Positions 1 to 29,640 of a DNA stretch of 29,640 nt are shown here, piece after piece; position 1 is the first letter of the stretch, and every line of letters starts with the position of its first letter. Source of the DNA: a virus; the IMG/VR virus record IMGVR_UViG_3300014839_000032, positions 1-29,640 of that record; one strand, written 5' to 3'. Below the pieces are notes generated by a model, which was given only the letters and a program-made list of their open reading frames with translations, made no database searches and had not been told where the DNA came from. Both the position numbers and the translations under genes were made by a program.

Positions 1-431
1 CAAATCAGCGCGATCTGGCGGTCCGCCCAGGCCTTGCGGCAAACCATCCAGATTTCCTCAACGGTGGGCGTCATCACGCGGCCCTTGTTCACCTCGGCAG
101 CATTCTCGCGCTCCTGCTGCCGGGTGACGCGGATCCGGGAGAGCATCTTCGCCGGCGGTGAGATGATCAGGCCGTTCGTGCCCTTGTATTCGCCACGGAG
201 CACGCGGTTGTATGTGCTGCCGTCGACGCCGAGCATGCGGGCTGCCTCGGCCTGGCTCATGCGCTTCTCGATCTGCGCATACCGAAACCACCAGCGGAGG
301 TCTTCCTGATACTCCGGCGGATTTTTCTGGATGCCGGCTTCGACGATGTCGCCGGCGAGATTGGTGCCATCCCACTCAGCCTGGTCGGCCGGCGCGGGAG
401 CTATCGGGGGGATTACGGGGGGATTTTCCAT
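1..431 (-). CDS. MuB-like transposition ATPase, N-terminal part (runs off the window)
   Basis: The reading frame starts at an ATG at 431 and stays open to the left edge, giving 143 residues. Residues about 50-85 form a helix-turn-helix region (contains MSQAEAARMLGV and STYNRVLRGEYKG). The visible part ends in EEIWMVCRKAWADRQIALI, the kind of segment that comes just before the Walker A motif in MuB/TnsC-like AAA+ ATPases, so the ATPase core would lie outside the window. MuB proteins bind DNA with ATP, choose target DNA and activate MuA. The gene starts 25 bp after the transposase stop on the same strand, which matches the A-B gene order of Mu-like phages. The MuB call rests on the HTH, the position and the lead-in to the ATPase; no Walker motif is visible here. 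Confidence 0.75.
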   Translation of the reverse strand, partial: MENPPVIPPIAPAPADQAEWDGTNLAGDIVEAGIQKNPPEYQEDLRWWFRYAQIEKRMSQAEAARMLGVDGSTYNRVLRGEYKGTNGLIISPPAKMLSRIRVTRQQERENAAEVNKGRVMTPTVEEIWMVCRKAWADRQIALI

Positions 432-8984: not shown

Positions 8985-10372
8985 TCGCTGTTTCTCCAAC
9001 CAGGTCCGTCAAAGCGAAGGTCAAGGCCCTCGCAGCTTCCTTTTTCCTCAACTACCAGGCGAGGTGGATCAAGGATGATTCCCGCCTCAAGCTCATGGAG
9101 AAGAGCCGGCAGATCGGGATCTCCTGGAGCACTGCCTACCGCCTTGTCCGCAACAAGTCCATCGACGGAGCGAAGAACGACGCATGGATCAGCTCGCGCG
9201 ATGACCTGCAGGCGCGGCTCTTCAAGGAGGATTGCAACAACTTTGCCACGATCCTTAACGCGGCCGCCCAGGATCTCGGTCAGATCGTCATCGACCAGGA
9301 GCGGGCGATCTCGGCTTACGTTCTTCAGTTCGCGAGCGGCGTGCGAATCCACTCGATGTCGAGCAACCCGGATGCCCAGGCCGGCAAACGCGGCGATCGC
9401 GTGCTCGATGAATTCGCGCTGCACCCAGACCCGAGGAAGCTCTACTCGATCGCCTATCCCGGCATCACCTGGGGAGGCTCGCTGGAGATCGTCTCGACGC
9501 ACCGCGGCTCGGCGAACTTCTTCAACAGCCTGGTCCAGGAGATCCGCCACAAGGGCAACCCGAAGGGATTCTCGCTGCACCGGGTGACACTCCAGGACGC
9601 ACTCGATGCGGGGTTCCTCGCGAAACTGCAGGCGAAGCTCCCGGCGGACGATCAGCGGCAGGACATGGACGAGGCCGCCTATTTCGACTTCATCAAGGCC
9701 GGCTGCCCGGACGAAGAGACCTTCCTGCAGGAATACATGTGCGATCCGTCCGACGATGCCGGCGCCTTCATTACTTACGAGATGATCGACGCCTGCAAAT
9801 ACAAGGCGGGCGAAGCCTGGGAGTTCTCTCTGGAGCAGCTTCAGGCATGCAAGGACCCGCTCTATATGGGTGTCGACGTCGGTCGGAAGAACGACCGCGC
9901 CGTTTTCTGGATCGACCAGGTCGTCGCCGGCGTGGCGTTCGCCCGCAAGATGATCGTACTGCAGAATCGCACCTTCTCCGCGATGGAAGCCGAGCTCTAT
10001 CCGCTGCTCGCATTGCCCGCGCTGCGCCGGGCCTGCTTCGACAACACCGGTCTGGGCATGCAGTTCGCCGAGCGCGCCCAGGAGCGGTTTGGCAAATACA
10101 AGGTCGAGGCCGTCACCTTCACCGGTCCAGTCAAGGAGGAGCTCGCCTATCCGGTCCGCGCAAGCATGGAAGACCGTTCCTGCCGTCTTCCCGACGATCC
10201 CTTCATCGTCTCGGATTTCCGCTCAATCCGAAAGGAGACGACAGCGGCTGGCAATATCCGCTTCACGGCCGAAGCCAACGAGACCGGCCACGCAGATCGG
10301 TTCTGGGCGAAAGCTCTTGCCCGACATGCGGCAAAATCGCCCTCCGGCAATTTCAGCTCCGCCATCATCTGA
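8981..10372 (+). CDS. Terminase large subunit (Mu gp28-like)
   Basis: This 463-residue motor protein drives DNA into the head and cuts it. It starts at a GTG at 8981. The ATPase domain has an unusual Walker A (EKSRQIGISWS, about residues 37-48), as in many phage terminases, and a Walker B (RVLDEFALHPD, about 140-150). The nuclease domain begins with the metal-binding GVDVGRKNDRAVFW near residue 297, an RNase-H-like strand with its first Asp. A further acidic turn (CFDNTGLGMQFAER) is near 350. Length and motif order are normal for Mu-like large terminases. The gene is followed by a tiny ORF and then the portal gene. Confidence 0.92.
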   Translation: MIAVSPTRSVKAKVKALAASFFLNYQARWIKDDSRLKLMEKSRQIGISWSTAYRLVRNKSIDGAKNDAWISSRDDLQARLFKEDCNNFATILNAAAQDLGQIVIDQERAISAYVLQFASGVRIHSMSSNPDAQAGKRGDRVLDEFALHPDPRKLYSIAYPGITWGGSLEIVSTHRGSANFFNSLVQEIRHKGNPKGFSLHRVTLQDALDAGFLAKLQAKLPADDQRQDMDEAAYFDFIKAGCPDEETFLQEYMCDPSDDAGAFITYEMIDACKYKAGEAWEFSLEQLQACKDPLYMGVDVGRKNDRAVFWIDQVVAGVAFARKMIVLQNRTFSAMEAELYPLLALPALRRACFDNTGLGMQFAERAQERFGKYKVEAVTFTGPVKEELAYPVRASMEDRSCRLPDDPFIVSDFRSIRKETTAAGNIRFTAEANETGHADRFWAKALARHAAKSPSGNFSSAII

Positions 10373-10374
10373 AC

Positions 10375-10554
10375 ATGCCCCTTTTCCGCAAAACCCGCCA
10401 AATCGCATTTGAGGCCGATATTCCGCCTTGCGCGGGTCAATGTGGCTGCGCGGCGGTCGACCGGCCTAGATCTTCGCTTGCAAGACCCATGCAAGGGCAA
10501 CGCGTGGCAGCGGCATCGGCGTCGCATCGGCCCGGAAAGGGGGTTTCGGCATGA
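10375..10554 (+). CDS. Possible 59-residue protein between terminase and portal
   Basis: A frame from an ATG at 10375, two bases after the terminase stop, runs to a stop that overlaps the portal ATG (ATGA at 10551-10554). It begins MPLFRKTRQIAFEADIPP and has two cysteines (CAGQCGC) near residue 20, then a basic, Ala/Ser-rich tail. Perfect spacing between its neighbours supports translation. The composition of the second half is weak, and no similarity was recognised. Confidence 0.45.
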   Translation: MPLFRKTRQIAFEADIPPCAGQCGCAAVDRPRSSLARPMQGQRVAAASASHRPGKGVSA

Positions 10555-12926
10555 ACCCGACCCAAGACTCCTTCCAGGCTGAGCTGGCGCGATATGCCGG
10601 CGCATCGGCGACGCCTCACGTTTCTGCCGTTCCCATGGCCGTCCAAAAGGCGGGTGGCGTGCCGTTCCCCTTCGACCGCGTCGATATGCTCAGCGCCAAT
10701 CCGCGCGAGCAACTGAACCAGCCCTACAAGCATTCAGTCTGGGTTCAGCGGGCCATCAAGAAGATTGCCGGCCCGATCGCAGCCGTTCCGTTCCGCGTGT
10801 TCGACCCCGCGAATGAGCGCGAGCTCGATGCCCCCGATCTGAAGGCGTTCCTAGACCAACCGGTCATTCGTATCAACCGCAGCGACTTCATCGAGGCCGC
10901 CGTGGGCTGGCTGAAGCTCAAGGGCGAGGCGTTCCTCATCGCCGACGACACCTGGCTGCTGCCTTTCCAAGAGGCGGTCAAGCGGGGCCGGCTCATAATG
11001 CCACGGCCGGACCAGATGCGGCAGATCACCGAGGGCGGCGAGCTCATCGGCTGGGAGTACAGGGATCCGAAGGGCGGGCGCCACATGCTTTTGCCTGAGC
11101 AGGTCTGGCAGATCAAATATTGGAATCCCTATGATCCGTGGAGGGGGATGCCGGAATATGATGCCGCTCGGATCGCTGCGGAGGGTGACTATTACGCGGG
11201 GGATTTCGTGAGGAACGTGATGGCGAACAACGGCGACCAGGGACCGTATATCATCGCCAAGAACGGAATCCCGAGCGATCCCCAACGCGCCCAGATCATC
11301 GCCGACCTGCGCGAAAAGCGCGCGCGGGCTCAGCGGGGCGAATTCCGGCCGGTATTTCTGACCGGTGACATTGAGGTCAAGTCCCCGGAGATCCAGGCGC
11401 CGGATGCGGACCTGGTCGCGACCAGGCTGCAGAGCCGCCACGAGATCTTCATCGCCTTTGGCGTGCCCGCCTCGATGGCCGACGTCGTAGCCAGCTTCTC
11501 GATCGGTTCGGCCAGCGCGCGATATGAGCTGATCGAAGAAACCTGCATGCCGGCAGCGGGCAAAGTCTGTGAGCTACTCGACGGGCCGGCTTCGATCATG
11601 GTTGGCCGCCCGGTGAAGATCAGGGCGAACTGGGATGAGCACTCGACGATGCAGGCGGTGCGTCGCGAACGGCTCGATGCGGCTCAGAAGCTTTGGCAGT
11701 CGGGAATGCCATGGAAGCAGATCAACGACTATCTGCACCTAGGCATGCAACCGTTCACCGGGTGGGATATCGCATATGTGCCGATCAGTGCGAACCCTGT
11801 CTCCGAGCTCGGCGCGGCGAAGCCGGCGGAGAAAGACCCGGCATTCTCGGAGAATACCGAGACAGACGGCGACACGGCGGACGAGGATCCGACCGTCAAT
11901 GAAATGCGCCGGGCGCTTCAGGCCAGGGCGAACGTCCTGGCGCTTCCCGCTCCCGTAGTCGCGAAAGCCGAGCCAGCGCCGGCGATTGCGGCGGACGAAT
12001 ACCGCATCTTCGCCTGCACCTGCGCGAGCTGCGCGGGCCGCGTCGGCAAGGCGCCATCGGCAAAAGACCTGGCGCGGTGGCGGCATTACATGAATTTGCG
12101 CCGCCCGGCGCTCAATGGCTATGTGAAGAAGATCGGCCGGGTGCTGATGATTGCCCGCGGCGAGGTGCTATCGAAGATCTCGGCCAACTATCGCCCGAAG
12201 AAATCCGCGCCCGATGCAGTCGCAAAGGCCAGGGCGGGCGCCGACCTGATGCTCCTTCGTGGTGGGCCCGGCTGTGACGTCGCTGGTTTTGTCGCAAAGG
12301 CCGGGGCTGCCAGCGACTTGATGTTCCGGCAGCATGAGCTGGAAACAAACTTCTTTTCCGCGATGCGGAAACAGGCCGCGGCGACGCTCAAGCTGGCCGG
12401 CCAGCAGCTCTTCGATGAGCTCGGCCGCGACGATCCGTTCAGCATGGCGCCGGAGGCCGTGCTGAATTATGCGCTCAAGCGCCAAAACGTCCTTTCCGGC
12501 GTCCCCCCGGAAATTGAGGCAAAGATCCATGCAACCCTTGCCGAGGGCATCGACGCCGGCGATACGACAGAGCAGCTGGCCAACCGCGTCCGCGCTGCAT
12601 TTAACGAAATCGACGCCGGCCGCGCCCGGACAATCGCCGCAACCGAGACCAGCGCCGCCTATGGCGCCGGGCGCCACGAAGCAATGACCCAGGCCGGCGT
12701 GCGCTTCAAGGCGTGGCTCACAAGCGGCAACGCCAATGTCCGGCCGGCGCACGAGCAGGCCGGGCTCGATTATCCCCCGGACCGCGGGATCCCGGTCGAC
12801 GATCCTTTCGTGGTCGACGGCGAAGAGCTCGATTATCCCGGCGACGATTCCGGATCGGCCGGCAACGTGATCAATTGCCACTGCGTATCGATCGCCGTGG
12901 CAGCTCCAGACGAGGAGGAATCATGA
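10551..12926 (+). CDS. Portal protein fused to a MuF-type minor head protein
   Basis: This single 791-residue frame seems to hold two head proteins that are separate genes in most phages. Residues about 1-430 match HK97-family portals: the start of the clip and wing (REQLNQPYKHSVWVQRAIKK), then IMVGRPVKIRANWDEHSTMQ near 350 and the tunnel-helix segment after it. A linker follows (Ala/Glu-rich) with the cysteine cluster FACTCASCAGRV near 486. Residues about 500-790 match the SPP1 gp7/MuF domain: ARTIAATETSAAYGAGRHEA, the MTQAG-to-GNANVRPAHEQ segment, and the final NVINCHC. The portal forms the DNA gate at one vertex and MuF proteins help head assembly. No stop or frameshift separates the parts, and a good RBS (GAGGAGG) for the next gene lies at its end. 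Confidence 0.88.
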   Translation: MNPTQDSFQAELARYAGASATPHVSAVPMAVQKAGGVPFPFDRVDMLSANPREQLNQPYKHSVWVQRAIKKIAGPIAAVPFRVFDPANERELDAPDLKAFLDQPVIRINRSDFIEAAVGWLKLKGEAFLIADDTWLLPFQEAVKRGRLIMPRPDQMRQITEGGELIGWEYRDPKGGRHMLLPEQVWQIKYWNPYDPWRGMPEYDAARIAAEGDYYAGDFVRNVMANNGDQGPYIIAKNGIPSDPQRAQIIADLREKRARAQRGEFRPVFLTGDIEVKSPEIQAPDADLVATRLQSRHEIFIAFGVPASMADVVASFSIGSASARYELIEETCMPAAGKVCELLDGPASIMVGRPVKIRANWDEHSTMQAVRRERLDAAQKLWQSGMPWKQINDYLHLGMQPFTGWDIAYVPISANPVSELGAAKPAEKDPAFSENTETDGDTADEDPTVNEMRRALQARANVLALPAPVVAKAEPAPAIAADEYRIFACTCASCAGRVGKAPSAKDLARWRHYMNLRRPALNGYVKKIGRVLMIARGEVLSKISANYRPKKSAPDAVAKARAGADLMLLRGGPGCDVAGFVAKAGAASDLMFRQHELETNFFSAMRKQAAATLKLAGQQLFDELGRDDPFSMAPEAVLNYALKRQNVLSGVPPEIEAKIHATLAEGIDAGDTTEQLANRVRAAFNEIDAGRARTIAATETSAAYGAGRHEAMTQAGVRFKAWLTSGNANVRPAHEQAGLDYPPDRGIPVDDPFVVDGEELDYPGDDSGSAGNVINCHCVSIAVAAPDEEES

Positions 12927-15201: not shown

Positions 15202-15233
15202 AGAGCCCTTCTCAATTCCAACGCCAAAACGCC

Positions 15234-15725
15234 ATGCCAAACATCACGCCTGTCACTTCTCCCACGAACCCTGGTCCCGATTTCGAAATCGCACGCGGCC
15301 AAAACATCGAGGCGATCGCGCGCAACCTCGGCACGCAGGTCGATTCCGCCGCCACGGACAGCACGGGCAGCTGGAGCTTGATCGCGCTATTCAAGCGGCT
15401 CCTTGGGTTCTGGACCGCACCCGGCTCGCCCTCGACCACTGCGGCGGTGACAGTGCAGCAGGCGGCGTCTGCCCCGCACTTCGACAACACCGCCGCGACG
15501 ATTGCCGGAGCCTCCTTCGTAGCACTGCCGGCCCATGCCTGCCACTCAGTCACGTTCGTCCTACCTGTGCCCTGCGACGTTCAGGGTGCCGGCGACACGG
15601 CCTATGCACCGTACCCAGCAGGGGCAATGACAGTAGCGGTAGCGGCCAACTCCAGCGAGTTGACGTTCCGCCAAAGCGACCACTCCGCCGTGGCCGTCGT
15701 AATCCCGTTTGAATTCAACTCCTGA
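15234..15725 (+). CDS. Probable head decoration or head-surface protein
   Basis: This 163-residue protein starts at the ATG at 15234. The composition is rich in Thr, Ala, Ser and Val, and beta-rich, with helical stretches near 20-35 and 50-62 (SLIALFKRLLGFW). The second half is a run of short strands (AATIAGASFVALPAHACHSV, then AMTVAVAANSSELTFRQSDH). Phages with HK97 heads often have a small decoration gene right after the capsid gene. That and the composition support the call, but no family was recognised. It is directly followed by the DGR target gene. Confidence 0.5.
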   Translation: MPNITPVTSPTNPGPDFEIARGQNIEAIARNLGTQVDSAATDSTGSWSLIALFKRLLGFWTAPGSPSTTAAVTVQQAASAPHFDNTAATIAGASFVALPAHACHSVTFVLPVPCDVQGAGDTAYAPYPAGAMTVAVAANSSELTFRQSDHSAVAVVIPFEFNS

Positions 15726-15730
15726 TCACC

Positions 15731-16747
15731 GTGAGCAGCAAATTCATTCCCGCGGTCGCATATGCTTCCGGAATCCTCCGCAAGCCAAATCCGTTTGCTC
15801 CATGCTTCAGCACCGTTGATGCGACGAACCAGGGCATCTTGGTGATGGCTGGAACTGCATTCCTTTTCGCCAACCGGCCCATTGTATTCAATACGGCAAC
15901 GGTAATCCCTATCAACACCGGCGCTTTGGCTGCTGGAACCGACTATGCGATCTATGTCACGTCCTCCGGGCTGCTGATTTTTTCCGCCAATTTCACCGCT
16001 CCTTATGGCTACACAGCGGCGAACAGTTTCAGGGTTGGCGGCTTCCACTTCGCTCCCGGCGGCCCTGCATCGACCGCGCAGACCGGCGGAAATACCACGC
16101 CGCAGATCTTCCCCCCGTCGATCTGGGATCTCCAATTCCGCCCGGCGTGCCCCGACCCGCGCGCGAAAGCATTCTGCCCTGGCGCCGGCTGGGTGTGTCT
16201 CTATCCGCTCAACACCAACCCAGATTTGCTAGGAGCCTCGGCTTACGGCGCACAGATCGCGGATGGCAGCTCGCTGCCAATTATCCCCGCTGCGCGCGGG
16301 GGAAATGGCTCGGCCGCATATCCGGACTTCTCGCGCTTCGTTGCCGAGGAATTACTCGGAGTGTACGGCTTGGAGCTGCTCACGCCGGCCCAGCGCGCGC
16401 ACGCCGCCTACGGCGTCACCGAAGGCACGCAGGCCGGCGCCGATCCGGTGACGACCGGCCTCGATGCGCCGCGGACCTCATGCTTCATGTTTCAGGCCAC
16501 TGGCAATATGTGGGAATGGCTCGCCGGCGATACCACCGACGCGCTCACCACTGCCTACGCCTGGCAGACCACTCCGCAGACGCGAGGCCAGGTCTATCAC
16601 ACAGCCCTCCGGGCTCCGCTCGGCGGTGGCTATTGGTTCTTCGGCGCCGACTGCGGTTCGCGTTGTTCGTACTGGGGCGTCTCGCCGTGGTATTCCTACG
16701 GCAGTTTCGGCGCCCGCGGCCGCTGTGACCACCTGCAACTTGTATGA
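15731..16747 (+). CDS. DGR variable protein, C-type-lectin/FGE-like
   Basis: This 338-residue protein starts at a GTG at 15731. Residues about 1-115 are beta-rich and would attach it to the virion. From about residue 125 it resembles the formylglycine-generating-enzyme-like C-type-lectin fold used by DGR target proteins, with GNMWEWL at 258-264 and the GGGYWFF start of the last strands near 298. The variable repeat encodes residues 298-333. Twelve variable residues are Y301, F303, F304, D307, Y314, G316, V317, Y321, Y323, G324, S325 and F326. The invariant G-S-R-C and G-A-R-G-R-C-D turns hold the fold. Only HLQLV follows the repeat. The fold and role are well supported; the ligand and virion position are not known. 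Confidence 0.88.
   Translation: MSSKFIPAVAYASGILRKPNPFAPCFSTVDATNQGILVMAGTAFLFANRPIVFNTATVIPINTGALAAGTDYAIYVTSSGLLIFSANFTAPYGYTAANSFRVGGFHFAPGGPASTAQTGGNTTPQIFPPSIWDLQFRPACPDPRAKAFCPGAGWVCLYPLNTNPDLLGASAYGAQIADGSSLPIIPAARGGNGSAAYPDFSRFVAEELLGVYGLELLTPAQRAHAAYGVTEGTQAGADPVTTGLDAPRTSCFMFQATGNMWEWLAGDTTDALTTAYAWQTTPQTRGQVYHTALRAPLGGGYWFFGADCGSRCSYWGVSPWYSYGSFGARGRCDHLQLV
16623..16729 (+). repeat. DGR variable repeat (VR)
   Basis: This 107-bp segment at the 3' end of the variable protein matches 17181-17287 at 90 of 107 positions. All 17 differences lie where the template has an adenine (24 adenines in total, 83 non-adenines all identical). This is direct evidence of adenine-specific reverse-transcriptase mutagenesis. 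The last 21 bp, from GGCGCCCGC to GTGAC, are identical and GC-rich, as expected for the initiation-of-mutagenic-homology region. Confidence 0.95.
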
Positions 16748-17181
16748 GCTGCGCGGAAGCGCAGCCAGCGCCCGAAAATGAACCTCGTACCGTCCTCGAC
16801 CCTGCCAGCTCCCTGCAGCACGCCTGCATGGAGCAACTGGCCATCGTCGAAAAGTATGAGGGATTCGTCGACTATGTATATCCGCTGCTCCGCGGACTGC
16901 CGCGGGCGGACTACGTGCTGCGCGACCATGCTACACACGCCGTCCTCGGACAGGTGCTGCTTTTTATCGAGGCGGGAAAGTCCGGCCAGGTCTCGCGGCT
17001 CTACGCCGCCGACGCCGGCATCGCCCACCTCCGTTTCATTTTGCGGTTCTGCGCCGCGCCCACGCGCAAGTTTATCTCGCAGCATCAGCACCGTACCGCG
17101 GCGATTCTCCTCGCCGAGGTTGGTGCGATGCTCGGGGCTTGGGTCAAGCGCGCGCAAGCCGCGAAGAGAGAGCGCGGATAG
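16744..17181 (+). CDS. avd: Avd, accessory protein of the DGR
   Basis: This 145-residue protein begins with an ATG overlapping the variable protein's stop (ATGA at 16744-16747). An ATG at 16828 would give 117 residues, nearer to the usual Avd length, and would leave the target hairpin in a non-coding spacer; either is possible. The core (IVEKYEGFVDYVYPLLRGLP, then a helix ending in HLRFILRF) has the pattern of the Avd four-helix bundle. Avd forms a pentamer, binds the template RNA and reverse transcriptase, and is essential for mutagenic retrohoming in the Bordetella phage BPP-1 system. The stop codon is the first base of the template repeat. Confidence 0.85.
   Translation: MSCAEAQPAPENEPRTVLDPASSLQHACMEQLAIVEKYEGFVDYVYPLLRGLPRADYVLRDHATHAVLGQVLLFIEAGKSGQVSRLYAADAGIAHLRFILRFCAAPTRKFISQHQHRTAAILLAEVGAMLGAWVKRAQAAKRERG
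16748..16765. promoter_or_regulatory. DGR target-site hairpin/cruciform downstream of VR
   Basis: A perfect inverted repeat has a 7-bp stem (GCTGCGC and GCGCAGC) and a 4-base loop GGAA. It starts 18 bases after the variable repeat ends. In BPP-1, a GC-rich hairpin or cruciform with a GRNA-type tetraloop just downstream of VR is needed for efficient target recognition. GGAA fits GRNA. The sequence and position match that known feature; function here is inferred. Confidence 0.7.
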
Positions 17182-17287
17182 CGGTGGCAATTGGAACAAC
17201 GGCGCCAACTGCGGTTCGCGTTGTTCGAACTGGAACAACTCGCCGTGGAATTCCAACAACAATATCGGCGCCCGCGGCCGCTGTGAC
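17181..17287 (+). repeat. DGR template repeat (TR)
   Basis: This is the invariant 107-bp copy. It contains 11 AAC or AAT codons in the target frame, the classic TR signature, because changes at A can then reach many residues without creating a stop codon. All eleven differ from the VR. It starts at the last base of the avd stop and lies upstream of the reverse transcriptase. Both repeats share the GC-rich 3' end. The sequence TGGAACAAC appears twice in it. In the target frame, TR is in frame with the open frame that leads into the RT. Confidence 0.95.
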
Positions 17288-17461
17288 AATCCGACAAGTC
17301 TTTTTCAACTCCGAGCGCTCACGGGCCTCGGACCCGACTACCAAGGTGGTCAGCCGGGCTCTCTCGCTTCGGCAAATACACTACTGGGTGAGGGCGCGGC
17401 GAGTAGCCTCGCGAAAGCGATCGGCAAAACCCGTCAGCCCTCCACTTTTTTCACTTTCTTT
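17288..17461 (+). other. Spacer RNA between TR and reverse transcriptase
   Basis: This 174-base stretch holds no clear separate gene. In the BPP-1 DGR the spacer after TR is part of the RNA and supplies structure for priming. The same is likely here. It is open in the RT frame, with no stop from TR to the RT motifs. No strong hairpin was found by eye. Confidence 0.45.
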
Positions 17462-18454
17462 GTGGGCCAACGTTATAAAAACCTCTTCCCGGCCATCGTG
17501 GCCGATGCCAATCTGCGCATCGCCTATCGCCTTACCGCGCTCGGCAAGCGGCAGACTCTTGGCTTTCTTGCCTACAAGGAGGAATCTGAGGTGAGGCTCG
17601 CTGATCTGCGCAGCGCGCTGCTCGCCGGCACGTATCGGCCTCAGCCGCCGCACGAGTTCTGGGTGTACGAGCCCAAAGCCCGGTGCATCTCGGCACTGCC
17701 CTTCGCCGATCGTGTCGTGCAGCATGCGCTCTATCGGGTGATCGGGCCGATCTTTAACTGCGTGCTGATGGGCCGCTGCTACGCCTGCCGCGTTGGCCTG
17801 GGCACGCATCACGGCGTCGTGGCCGTACAGGCGGAACTTCGCCGGCTCGTGCGCGAGCATGGACCGGAGCAGGTCTATTTTCTCAAGACCGATTTCCGGC
17901 AATATTTCGCGAACATCGACCGCGGGATCCTCTGGCACGAGATCGAGCGCAAGATCAGTTGCCGCCGCACACTCGATTTGATCGAACGCTTCACGCCGCG
18001 CACGGGTACGGGCCTGCCGATCGGCAATCTCACCTCGCAACTTTGGGCCAATATCTACGGTCACATTTTCGACCGCTGGCTCGTCGCGCAAGGCGCGCTC
18101 CACTGGCACCGATATATGGATGACGTCGTCGTGCTCGGCACCGACTGGCGTGCGCTGGCGGCGCTGCTGAAGCGCGCCGAAGCGTTTGCCGGCGAGGCGA
18201 TGGGCCTGCGGCTCTCGCACTGGATGGTGGCACATCACACGCAGGGCATCAACTTTCTCGGCTACCGGATTTTTGCCCGGCACAAGCTACTGCGCCCGGC
18301 GAGCGTGCGCCGTGCCCGCCGGAAGCTACGGCACTTCGCGCGACATGATGAGCCCGAGGCGCGCCAGCGCTTCCTCTCCGCCTGGCTCGGCCATGCCAGC
18401 TGGGCCGACAGCCGCAATCTGCAGCGCAGCCTCGGGCTTATTTTCGCTGGATAA
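17462..18454 (+). CDS. DGR reverse transcriptase
   Basis: With a GTG start at 17462 (begins VGQRYKNLF, the usual start of DGR RTs) the protein has 330 residues. The frame is open upstream through the TR, but no ATG follows the TR, so the GTG is the best choice, without a visible Shine-Dalgarno. Motifs are complete: KTDFRQYFANID (catalytic D144), LPIGNLTSQ at 185-193, the DGR-type motif 4, YMDD at 218-221 and GINFLGYR further on. The C-terminus is basic and would bind RNA. It reverse-transcribes the template RNA with errors at adenines and feeds the cDNA to VR. All catalytic residues are present, so it looks active. Confidence 0.93.
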   Translation: MGQRYKNLFPAIVADANLRIAYRLTALGKRQTLGFLAYKEESEVRLADLRSALLAGTYRPQPPHEFWVYEPKARCISALPFADRVVQHALYRVIGPIFNCVLMGRCYACRVGLGTHHGVVAVQAELRRLVREHGPEQVYFLKTDFRQYFANIDRGILWHEIERKISCRRTLDLIERFTPRTGTGLPIGNLTSQLWANIYGHIFDRWLVAQGALHWHRYMDDVVVLGTDWRALAALLKRAEAFAGEAMGLRLSHWMVAHHTQGINFLGYRIFARHKLLRPASVRRARRKLRHFARHDEPEARQRFLSAWLGHASWADSRNLQRSLGLIFAG

Positions 18455-18462
18455 CGGTTCCT

Positions 18463-18708
18463 ATGCAAACGATCAACACTCGCCAAGACCTCGATGCCCT
18501 CGCCGGCACGCCTGAGCATGCGGCATTTATCGCCGGCCTTAAGGCCTCACTCATCCGCACCCAAGATACCCAGACGTACCCGGAGGACTACAACCAGGAC
18601 CTCAAGCCCGGCGCCGCTGGCTACCTCCCGCCGATCTTCACTGATGTGCCCGATGCGTCGATCGCAGCACGTTATGGCTTCACGCCGGAGCAGCTCGGCC
18701 TCCTCTGA
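18463..18708 (+). CDS. Small acidic protein after the reverse transcriptase
   Basis: This 81-residue protein has an N-terminal helix (TRQDLDALAGTPEHAAFIAG) and a Pro/Tyr-rich second half (TYPEDYNQDLKPGAAGY, then ARYGFTPEQLGL). It starts 9 bp after the RT stop and overlaps the next ATG at TGATG. The composition is natural and acidic. It belongs to the DGR message by position, but no known DGR accessory protein was recognised. It could be a small structural protein. Confidence 0.55.
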   Translation: MQTINTRQDLDALAGTPEHAAFIAGLKASLIRTQDTQTYPEDYNQDLKPGAAGYLPPIFTDVPDASIAARYGFTPEQLGLL

Positions 18709-18845
18709 TGGCTAAGAAAACTGCGATCAAAGCTGCGGCTCCCATTCTGCCGGCCTCCACGCAATGCCCAAGCGCGCCGGCGCCGGCGCATCGTGCAATC
18801 CTGCGGCCGATCGTGCGCCGTCCAGCCACCCCGCCTTCCCGATGA
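18708..18845 (+). CDS. Very small basic protein
   Basis: A 45-residue frame begins at the ATG at 18708, which overlaps the previous stop, and ends in an ATGA overlap with the beta-propeller gene. It begins MAKKTAIKAAAPILPAS and is rich in Ala, Pro and Arg. Overlaps at both ends suggest translation, but the sequence is low in complexity and no family was recognised. Confidence 0.4.
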   Translation: MAKKTAIKAAAPILPASTQCPSAPAPAHRAILRPIVRRPATPPSR

Positions 18846-19867
18846 TTTTCCCCGCCATCACCGAGCATCCTGGCTATATGACCTCCTGGATCGCCGACCT
18901 CCCCGGTCTGATCCACCGGGCGTTCAACGGGTCGCTGGTGAAATTCGACGGGCATTGGGTACTGGCCGAGCGGATCGAATACTTCGACGGGCGCAGCAGC
19001 ATCCAAATTTCGCGGATCAATCGCACGTCATGGAGGCGCTCCGGCCCCCTCTGGCTCGTCTTCCAGCCAGACCGCGCCGGCACATTCTTCGAGGATCCAC
19101 GCCTCTTCATCGCAGCGGACCAGCTTTATCTTAGCTTCGTTTCCGTCTGCTATGCGCCCCATGGCGATGGCGTTTTCAGTCAGCGTTTGGCGCGCGTTGA
19201 CCTGGCCAAGCTCGCTCTTGAGGAAGTCGAGATATCGGACGGCCGCGGCGGCAAGAACTTCACTTTCTTTGACCATGATGGGAAAATCGGATGGATCTCC
19301 CGACCGAAATTCCGGTGGCCCTGGGGCGAGCCGAGCGGGGGCAGCCCAGCCGTTTTCTCTCCCCGTCATGGCGCCTGGCTCGCGATCGGCCATGCCTATG
19401 TCGCCGAGGTGCACCGCGGCCGGCGTTACAACATGTTCGCAATGCTCCTCGATCCGGTGCGGCGCGCGATCACGCATGTTTCCAAAAATCCGCTCTGGTG
19501 GGGCAGCACCGATGATTTCACGATTGTCTATCCGCGCTTTTTCCACTGGGCGCCGATCGATGTTTTCCCTTCCGGCCTCTGCGCGGCCGGCAACGATTGG
19601 TTCGTCACCATGGGGGTGAACGACAGCGCCACTGCATTGGTCCGGCTGCGCGATGTTGATCTCGACCTGATCCCCGTCGGCCAGATCCCATCCGAAGCTC
19701 CGGCGCAGCTCGCCGGCGCCGTCACCTCGATTGGGTCTGTCCGGGTGCGCAGCATTTCGCACCAGCCGATCGTCGAGCCGGGCGGACCATATCGTCGCGG
19801 CGATGAGTTTCTTCTCTCGGTCGATCGCGCCCACGCGCTCGGCAAACAGATCGAGGTGCTCGCATGA
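18842..19867 (+). CDS. Beta-propeller protein, GH130/glycosidase-like
   Basis: From the ATG at 18842 (overlapping the previous stop; a start at 18764 is rejected) this is a 341-residue protein. It has the repeated Trp/Phe-rich strands of a five-bladed beta-propeller. FEDPRLFIAADQLYLSFV (83-100) resembles the EDPR signature of GH130-type mannoside phosphorylases and hydrolases, and MGVNDSATALVRL (from 257) resembles the late VSYGVND motif of those and related families. Other blades include KIGWISRPKFRWPWGEPSGG and SKNPLWWGSTDDFTIVYPRF. Such proteins cleave or bind glycans. The gene sits between the DGR and the head-tail connector, so it may be a virion glycan-active protein. The match is by pattern; activity is unproven. 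Confidence 0.6.
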   Translation: MIFPAITEHPGYMTSWIADLPGLIHRAFNGSLVKFDGHWVLAERIEYFDGRSSIQISRINRTSWRRSGPLWLVFQPDRAGTFFEDPRLFIAADQLYLSFVSVCYAPHGDGVFSQRLARVDLAKLALEEVEISDGRGGKNFTFFDHDGKIGWISRPKFRWPWGEPSGGSPAVFSPRHGAWLAIGHAYVAEVHRGRRYNMFAMLLDPVRRAITHVSKNPLWWGSTDDFTIVYPRFFHWAPIDVFPSGLCAAGNDWFVTMGVNDSATALVRLRDVDLDLIPVGQIPSEAPAQLAGAVTSIGSVRVRSISHQPIVEPGGPYRRGDEFLLSVDRAHALGKQIEVLA

Positions 19868-29016: not shown

Positions 29017-29478
29017 ATGGTTGTTCACTCAGTTAAATACACGCTGTCCCACCCGGCGTTGACCACGGCCATGGCTTTGAAGACGGCGCTGCCTCCTTCA
29101 ACTCCCATTCCTCCGGTGCCAACGGCCGCTGGGACCGGCCGCATCCCTCCGTCCCATCTAGGTCTTGGTGATTGGATCTGGTCCTGGGCGCACCCACTCG
29201 GGGCTTGGATTGACCGTCTGATCGCTCCCCGACTCTTACGGCTCCATCTCTGGACACCCGGTTTCCGTCTTGCGGGCTGTAGTGGCTGTTCCTGGCGCCG
29301 CTCTCTATATAATAGGATACTCCCGGATCTCCAGTCCTGTGCTGCCTGGCGCGCCTTCCCTGGCCGTCTCTGGCGCTACATGCGGGCCGGAGGCCCTCTC
29401 TTTCGCGCGCCCCGCAAGGCCATTTCCGCGCCTATGCAACGCCCAGGCAATTCCGCCGAAAAAGGCCGAGTTTCCTAA
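29017..29478 (+). CDS. Last phage gene, Cys/Trp/Arg-rich small protein
   Basis: This 153-residue frame starts at the ATG at 29017. The first 50 residues are Pro/Thr-rich. The middle (LGDWIWSWAHPLGAWIDRLI, then LRLHLWTPGFRLAGCSGC and SWRRSLYNRILPDLQSC) resembles a recurrent small phage motif where C-x-x-C followed by a basic helix ends in NxL or NRI. The last 40 residues are basic and overlap the end-repeat region, so the true stop might lie earlier. The motif supports a real gene, whose function is unknown. Confidence 0.5.
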   Translation: MVVHSVKYTLSHPALTTAMALKTALPPSTPIPPVPTAAGTGRIPPSHLGLGDWIWSWAHPLGAWIDRLIAPRLLRLHLWTPGFRLAGCSGCSWRRSLYNRILPDLQSCAAWRAFPGRLWRYMRAGGPLFRAPRKAISAPMQRPGNSAEKGRVS

Positions 29479-29517
29479 ACTCGCCGGAATTATTCCCAAA
29501 CTCCGCCGGAATTTACA
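29449..29517. repeat. Repeats at the phage right end, candidate transposase-binding ends
   Basis: CGCCGGAATT occurs at 29482-29491 and again at 29504-29513, so the copies start 22 bp apart, the spacing of MuA end sites. A related inverted copy (AATTCCGCCG) is at 29449-29458. A 6-bp-stem hairpin (GAGTTT and AAACTC, 29468-29482) lies between the first two. The second direct repeat is followed by TTTACA at 29512-29517. The CA at 29516-29517 would fit the TG...CA ends of Mu-like elements, which would place the host junction there. The matching left end lies outside the window, so this is inference. Confidence 0.45.
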
Positions 29518-29533
29518 TCGGCGGCCCGCCGAA

Positions 29534-29625
<92 letters not shown>

Positions 29626-29640
29626 GGAGGCCCTGGCTGA

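Follow-up and report, generated by a model that had tools for sequence, protein, structure and literature searches.

The 29,640-nt stretch of viral DNA that we analysed (IMG/VR record IMGVR_UViG_3300014839_000032, referred to here as the window) very probably (probability of about 0.93) carries a complete diversity-generating retroelement (DGR) of the BPP-1 type, which would act by mutagenic retrohoming onto an Mtd-type C-type-lectin adhesin in a temperate Mu-like phage. All the sequence features of a BPP-1-type DGR that we looked for were found, except the Mtd beta-prism. The initial annotation had placed a target gene with its VR, a hairpin, Avd, a TR and a reverse transcriptase (RT) in this order between positions 15731 and 18454, and coordinates and family matches confirm that order. 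All the parts that it named lie inside this interval, but the cassette is an insert of ~3.5 kb that extends past it, to an upstream gene (ORF163, 15234-15725) and to a bbp4 homolog (18463-18708). The features of the cassette are the following:

15222..18760 (approximate ends), no strand assigned: whole insert, ORF163 - mtd - avd - TR - RT - bbp4, between the major capsid protein (MCP) gene and a propeller gene
15234..15725, plus strand: ORF163, putative structural or anchor protein, belonging to the same insert as the target
15731..16747, plus strand: DGR target, Mtd homolog (Pfam mtd_2nd 3e-20; phrog_11262 tail protein 7e-93; PDB Mtd E 8.5e-52)
16623..16729, plus strand: VR, 107 nt, near the 3' end of the Mtd-like gene, with 17/17 mismatches at TR adenines
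16707..16729, plus strand: IMH-like 3' end of VR, GC-rich, same sequence in TR according to the alignment
16744..17181, plus strand: avd (PF22296 5e-26; NF033474 above cutoff; phrog_3206)
16748..16765, plus strand: hairpin/cruciform, 7-bp stem GCTGCGC/GCGCAGC with loop GGAA, VR 18 nt upstream
17181..17287, plus strand: TR, 107 nt (the TRs of siblings L002 and L004 are identical to each other)
17307..17441, plus strand: Phage_DGR structured RNA RF03022, between TR and RT (55.3 bits for a gathering cutoff of 50)
17462..18454, plus strand: DGR reverse transcriptase, from a putative GTG start (phrog_1423 7e-96)
18463..18708, plus strand: ORF81, bbp4 homolog (49% identity to BPP-1 bbp4), following RT as the fifth cassette gene

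The VR/TR pair bears the signature that is characteristic of a DGR. The two repeats, separated by a spacing of 558 nt, align without gaps over 107 nt each with 84% identity, and all 17 mismatches fall within the 24 adenines of TR (hypergeometric P=1.5e-14), corresponding to ten A>T and seven A>G substitutions. A repeat score tolerating mismatches at TR adenines reached 85.6, while the maximum among 100 codon shuffles of the region was 17.4. One aspect of VR counts against our main reading, as A>C substitutions are missing (0/17, compared to ~19% in relatives), which may be a chance effect. The existence of a repeat is the only thing in favor of an ordinary gene duplication or a chance repeat without any DGR, and this explanation is so improbable that we consider it ruled out: mismatches are restricted to adenines, a TR/VR pair is found in 83 of the 84 related RT loci with enough upstream sequence (with 85% of the mismatches at TR adenines), and the RF03022 element is present together with Avd, RT and the hairpin.

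These other components are also those expected of a phage DGR. The GC-rich IMH end of VR is followed by a hairpin located directly past the stop codon of the target gene, which agrees with the rule described for phage DGRs, where a GC stem of 7-10 bp with a GRNA loop is found 4-34 bp from VR (PMC3240598). The DNA folding z-score of the wider hairpin region was -1.04, which is not significant by itself, and the hairpin was called from its position, its loop and its conservation, not from folding energy. The Avd accessory protein exceeds the cutoff of its NCBIfam model, and the structured TR RNA element RF03022 was also detected in BPP-1 and at four other loci (L002, L004, L096 and L097). The RT is of the DGR type and homologous to BPP-1 brt, its best matches being those of Bordetella phages vB_BbrP_003 and BPP-1 (~51% identity), and it carries the LPIGNLTSQ and YMDD motifs, so that the catalytic motif is intact as reported in the initial annotation. 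The open frame from 16778 to 18454 that had been assigned to the RT does contain it, but this frame runs through TR, and alignment with the bRT of BPP-1 points to GTG 17462 as the most likely start of translation. The sequence upstream of this GTG shows no evident ribosome-binding site, and no close relatives of either the RT or the MuA-like protein were found in bacterial genomes.

Signs of natural activity come from two sibling phages, L002 and L004, with a cassette that is 84% identical to that of the window at the nucleotide level. The initial annotation had named a VR fixed in all related sequences as the outcome that would speak against its proposal, and this is not what we observed: the VRs of L002 and L004 differ at 12 positions, all at TR adenines (P=1.2e-10) although their TRs are identical, while only one difference was found in ~2594 nt outside VR (P=1e-16). 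A DGR that was active not long ago should leave such a pattern. The RT and Avd genes of the window evolve under purifying selection (dN/dS of 0.12 and 0.23, respectively, from comparison with the siblings, L004 in the case of RT) and no disrupting stop or frameshift was found in the cassette, which is probably working. It could be argued that this DGR is decayed or silenced, with a VR signature left by past mutagenesis in a copy that is now dead, for example if the RNA is not made or if the GTG start is not used for want of an obvious ribosome site. The window phage is indeed represented by a single VR sequence, and the missing ribosome-binding site also goes in this direction; nevertheless, the undisrupted genes, the purifying selection, an RNA element that exceeds its Rfam gathering cutoff and the recent activity seen in the sibling cassettes make such a decay very improbable. 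Separately, three other mtd loci (L040, L042 and L044) have avd with no RT match nearby, and these are possible decayed or divergent DGRs.

The C-terminus of the target corresponds to a C-type-lectin domain and VR sits there, as in Mtd-type targets, with a theoretical protein diversity of up to ~1e14 variants. The N-terminal beta-prism of Mtd has no counterpart in the alignment of the target, since the PDB match begins at Mtd residue 74. This absence counts against our main reading; it is shared by the targets of L002 and L004 and is a feature of the target, not of the DGR. ORF163 gave no match in Pfam, PHROG or NCBIfam; it contains a SLIALFKRLL motif that is common to other phage proteins and its matches to cyanophage proteins and to L014 are weak and local. 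In L004, ORF163 is replaced by a small gene (9711-10003) made of 13-residue TATAPGHTTPTAA-type repeats, which adjoins the sibling target upstream. Since another gene precedes the cassette in the siblings and since their target begins with other residues than that of the window, the attachment end of the target appears to have been exchanged.

The position of the cassette between MCP and head-tail adaptor genes is unusual among relatives, and gene order makes it possible that the adhesin is displayed on the head. The DGR would then be real but the diversified protein would be part of a capsid fibre rather than of the tail, which could also fit with a target that lacks the beta-prism and lies directly downstream of the structural-looking ORF163, as well as with Synechococcus phage S-CBS3, where mtd is also found one gene past the annotated major capsid protein. 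However, gene position does not fix location on the virion, the siblings carry the same cassette at another place, the gene that separates MCP from mtd in S-CBS3 matches a major tail protein family, and the medium-sized genes that precede mtd at other loci have their matches most often among tail or tail-fibre families. Altogether, we consider a head fibre unlikely.

Comparison with a relative of the same backbone shows that the cassette behaves as an inserted module. L008, which is part of the sister contig G003, is 81% identical to the window in terminase, 82% in MCP and 80% in the head-tail adaptor, and its propeller-like gene comes directly after MCP: the cassette is missing, and this alignment sets the ends of the insert. 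No VR/TR-like repeat was found in L008, and the sequence of a second MCP relative (L009) stops just past MCP. The contrast between the window and L008 thus corresponds to a cassette that was either gained in the window phage or lost in L008. In L002 and L004, the cassette is carried by a different backbone, as only the cassette genes among the window proteins match L004 closely (27% for terminase). The propeller-like gene at 18764-19867, which probably starts at 18843 from the comparison with L008, has a weak likeness to propeller-type glycosidases/phosphorylases (Glyco_hydro_130 E 0.014, below cutoff); it is kept in L008 within the head-gene cluster and possibly encodes a second surface-binding protein. 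Elsewhere in the window, a single 791-aa protein (10551-12926) fuses portal and Mu F-like domains.

The last gene of the cassette turned out to be linked to mtd rather than to the RT. Among 85 mtd loci with RT, 77 have a bbp4 homolog after the RT (unique mtd loci, mostly from IMG/VR, with a bbp4 start between -60 and +150 nt from the RT end), and such a homolog is also found in 11 of 18 mtd loci where no RT was detected, in 10 cases directly after mtd (<=147 nt). Homologs of bbp4 follow mtd in L002, L004, L005 and many IMG/VR loci, and in the phage collection all nine bbp4 matches covering most of the protein belong to mtd-carrying Bordetella and Synechococcus phages. Because of this linkage even in loci lacking RT, bbp4 looks like a partner of Mtd, and the possibility that it is a DGR accessory gene was set aside. 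The simplest reading is that Bbp4 probably contributes to the folding, assembly or mounting of Mtd, with the DGR as an optional insert between mtd and bbp4. The AlphaFold model of Bbp4 is confident (pLDDT 91), its fold has no match in PDB or BFVD, and our literature search found no paper on bbp4. A broader proposal would be that mtd and bbp4 form a self-contained adhesin module that spreads among unrelated backbones, with avd-TR-RT as the optional insert, and that in the window phage the hypervariable adhesin, having lost its beta-prism, is carried by the head and not by the tail; taken as a whole, this is quite unlikely.

The initial annotation had described the phage as transposable, with MuA/MuB-type transposition, and support for this comes from a MuA profile match that is remote but clear, from a MuB gene on the sister contig and from Mu-like ends; the window itself does contain a MuA-like gene, but its MuB-type gene is limited to the first 143 codons. 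The relevant features are the following:

3..431, minus strand: N-terminal part of a MuB-type gene, first 143 codons, cut by the contig end
456..2702, minus strand: MuA-like DDE transposase (hhalign probability 92%, E 5.9e-7)
29475..29517, plus strand: phage right end, two ~22-nt repeats resembling transposase sites, terminus TACA

The MuA-type transposase is visible only by profile-profile comparison, when a profile made of the window protein and two relatives is aligned to the transposases of Mu, BalMu-1, Mushu and Hankyphage; direct homology searches gave no match in Pfam, NCBIfam, PDB or the phage collection. In this alignment, Glu303 stands opposite the catalytic Asp336 of MuA, which counts against our main reading. 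Glu303 is invariant in the two relatives. The AlphaFold modelling of the MuA-like protein, run on three sequences, was discarded (pLDDT 41). The HTH region of the truncated MuB-type gene matches the MuB homolog L010 of sister contig G003 (E 4e-6), which is complete and belongs to the DNA transposition protein family phrog_296 (1.2e-39). At the right end of the phage, 48 nt are 98% identical to the end of G003 and the flanks diverge beyond, while the left end of G003 begins with TGTG and carries inverted copies of the end repeat. TG..CA ends, repeated sites and varying flanks are thus found as in Mu-like phages, with the right end seen in the window and both ends in G003. No 5-bp target-site duplication is visible at the G003 flanks.

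The 123 nt past the phage end (within 29475-29640) include a tRNA-Ser(gga) gene located 18 bp beyond this end. The DNA past 29517 is presumed to be host DNA, and the tRNA-Ser(gga) flank could help identify the host. The proximity of this tRNA gene, together with the absent Pfam MuA match and the G003 flanks lacking a target-site duplication, could suggest that the phage is not transposable and that its MuA-like gene encodes another DDE-type recombinase, with integration at the tRNA-Ser gene. We find this improbable: none of the proteins scanned was identified as an integrase, the flank of the relative differs and the portion of it that was retrieved contains no tRNA gene, and the MuA profile match, the MuB homolog and the inverted repeated sites at TG..CA ends also speak against it. 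From the MuA profile match, the MuB homolog and the repeated ends, and despite the missing duplication in G003, transposition of the window phage appears well supported, short of a demonstration.

The window cassette most resembles that of BPP-1, with which it shares the gene order mtd-avd-TR-brt-bbp4, an Mtd target (~40% identity), an RT that is ~51% identical, a hairpin after VR, the RF03022 RNA and a bbp4 gene downstream of RT. It differs by the length of VR and TR (107 nt, instead of 134 nt in BPP-1), by a target lacking the beta-prism, by its location in the head-gene region whereas the BPP-1 cassette lies beside a tail-fibre gene, and by the Mu-type end of the phage whereas the attachment site of BPP-1 lies at a tRNA gene. 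The initial annotation had presented the association of a DGR with transposition as remarkable. This holds up poorly, as the pairing is already known from Hankyphage, Mushu and BalMu-1: DGRs in Mu-like phages were published in Toussaint 2013 (as cited in PMC5883640), for Mushu (PMC5883640) and for Hankyphage (PMC6199706, PMC12135933), and DGR activity was measured in the latter (PMC12135933). Hankyphage p00 (Bacteroides) is also a temperate phage with a Mu-like transposase and a DGR, but its RT is only ~27% identical to that of the window, its target was missed by the Mtd search and its DGR is located close to the right genome end. Similarly, Mushuvirus mushu and Bacillus phage BalMu-1 combine MuA, MuB and a DGR (Avd and RT), but the DGR occupies the tail end of their genomes, with distant RTs (28-33% identity) and no Mtd match. 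In Synechococcus phages S-CBS1 and S-CBS3, a bbp4 homolog follows mtd as in the window, and S-CBS3 also has its mtd one gene downstream of the annotated MCP; neither RT nor Avd was matched close to this mtd in the S-CBS3 stretch compared. The most original points of the window are the mtd-bbp4 linkage and the insertion in the head region.

For the window phage, what we infer concerns transcription, cDNA synthesis, homing, the function of the adhesin and its location on the virion. In the proposed mechanism, TR would be transcribed within an avd-TR-rt RNA bearing the Phage_DGR structure and this RNA would be copied by RT with Avd, adenines being miscopied. The cDNA would then take the place of VR in the Mtd-like gene upstream, with the GC-rich end of VR and the hairpin past the stop codon as guides, and the product would be a variable Mtd-type C-type-lectin adhesin binding the host surface. 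The cassette sits as a module among the head genes, together with bbp4 as the likely Mtd partner, in a phage that would move by MuA/MuB-type transposition.

With these results, an uncultivated Mu-like lineage is seen to carry a well-supported DGR, for which sibling phages provide evidence of natural activity. More broadly, the gain concerns architecture: bbp4 accompanies mtd even without RT, and the relatives that have or lack the cassette form a natural example of a DGR being gained or lost in a head-gene region. Bbp4 is thereby a testable candidate for a factor that may mount or fold Mtd, a step needed for the display of any variant.
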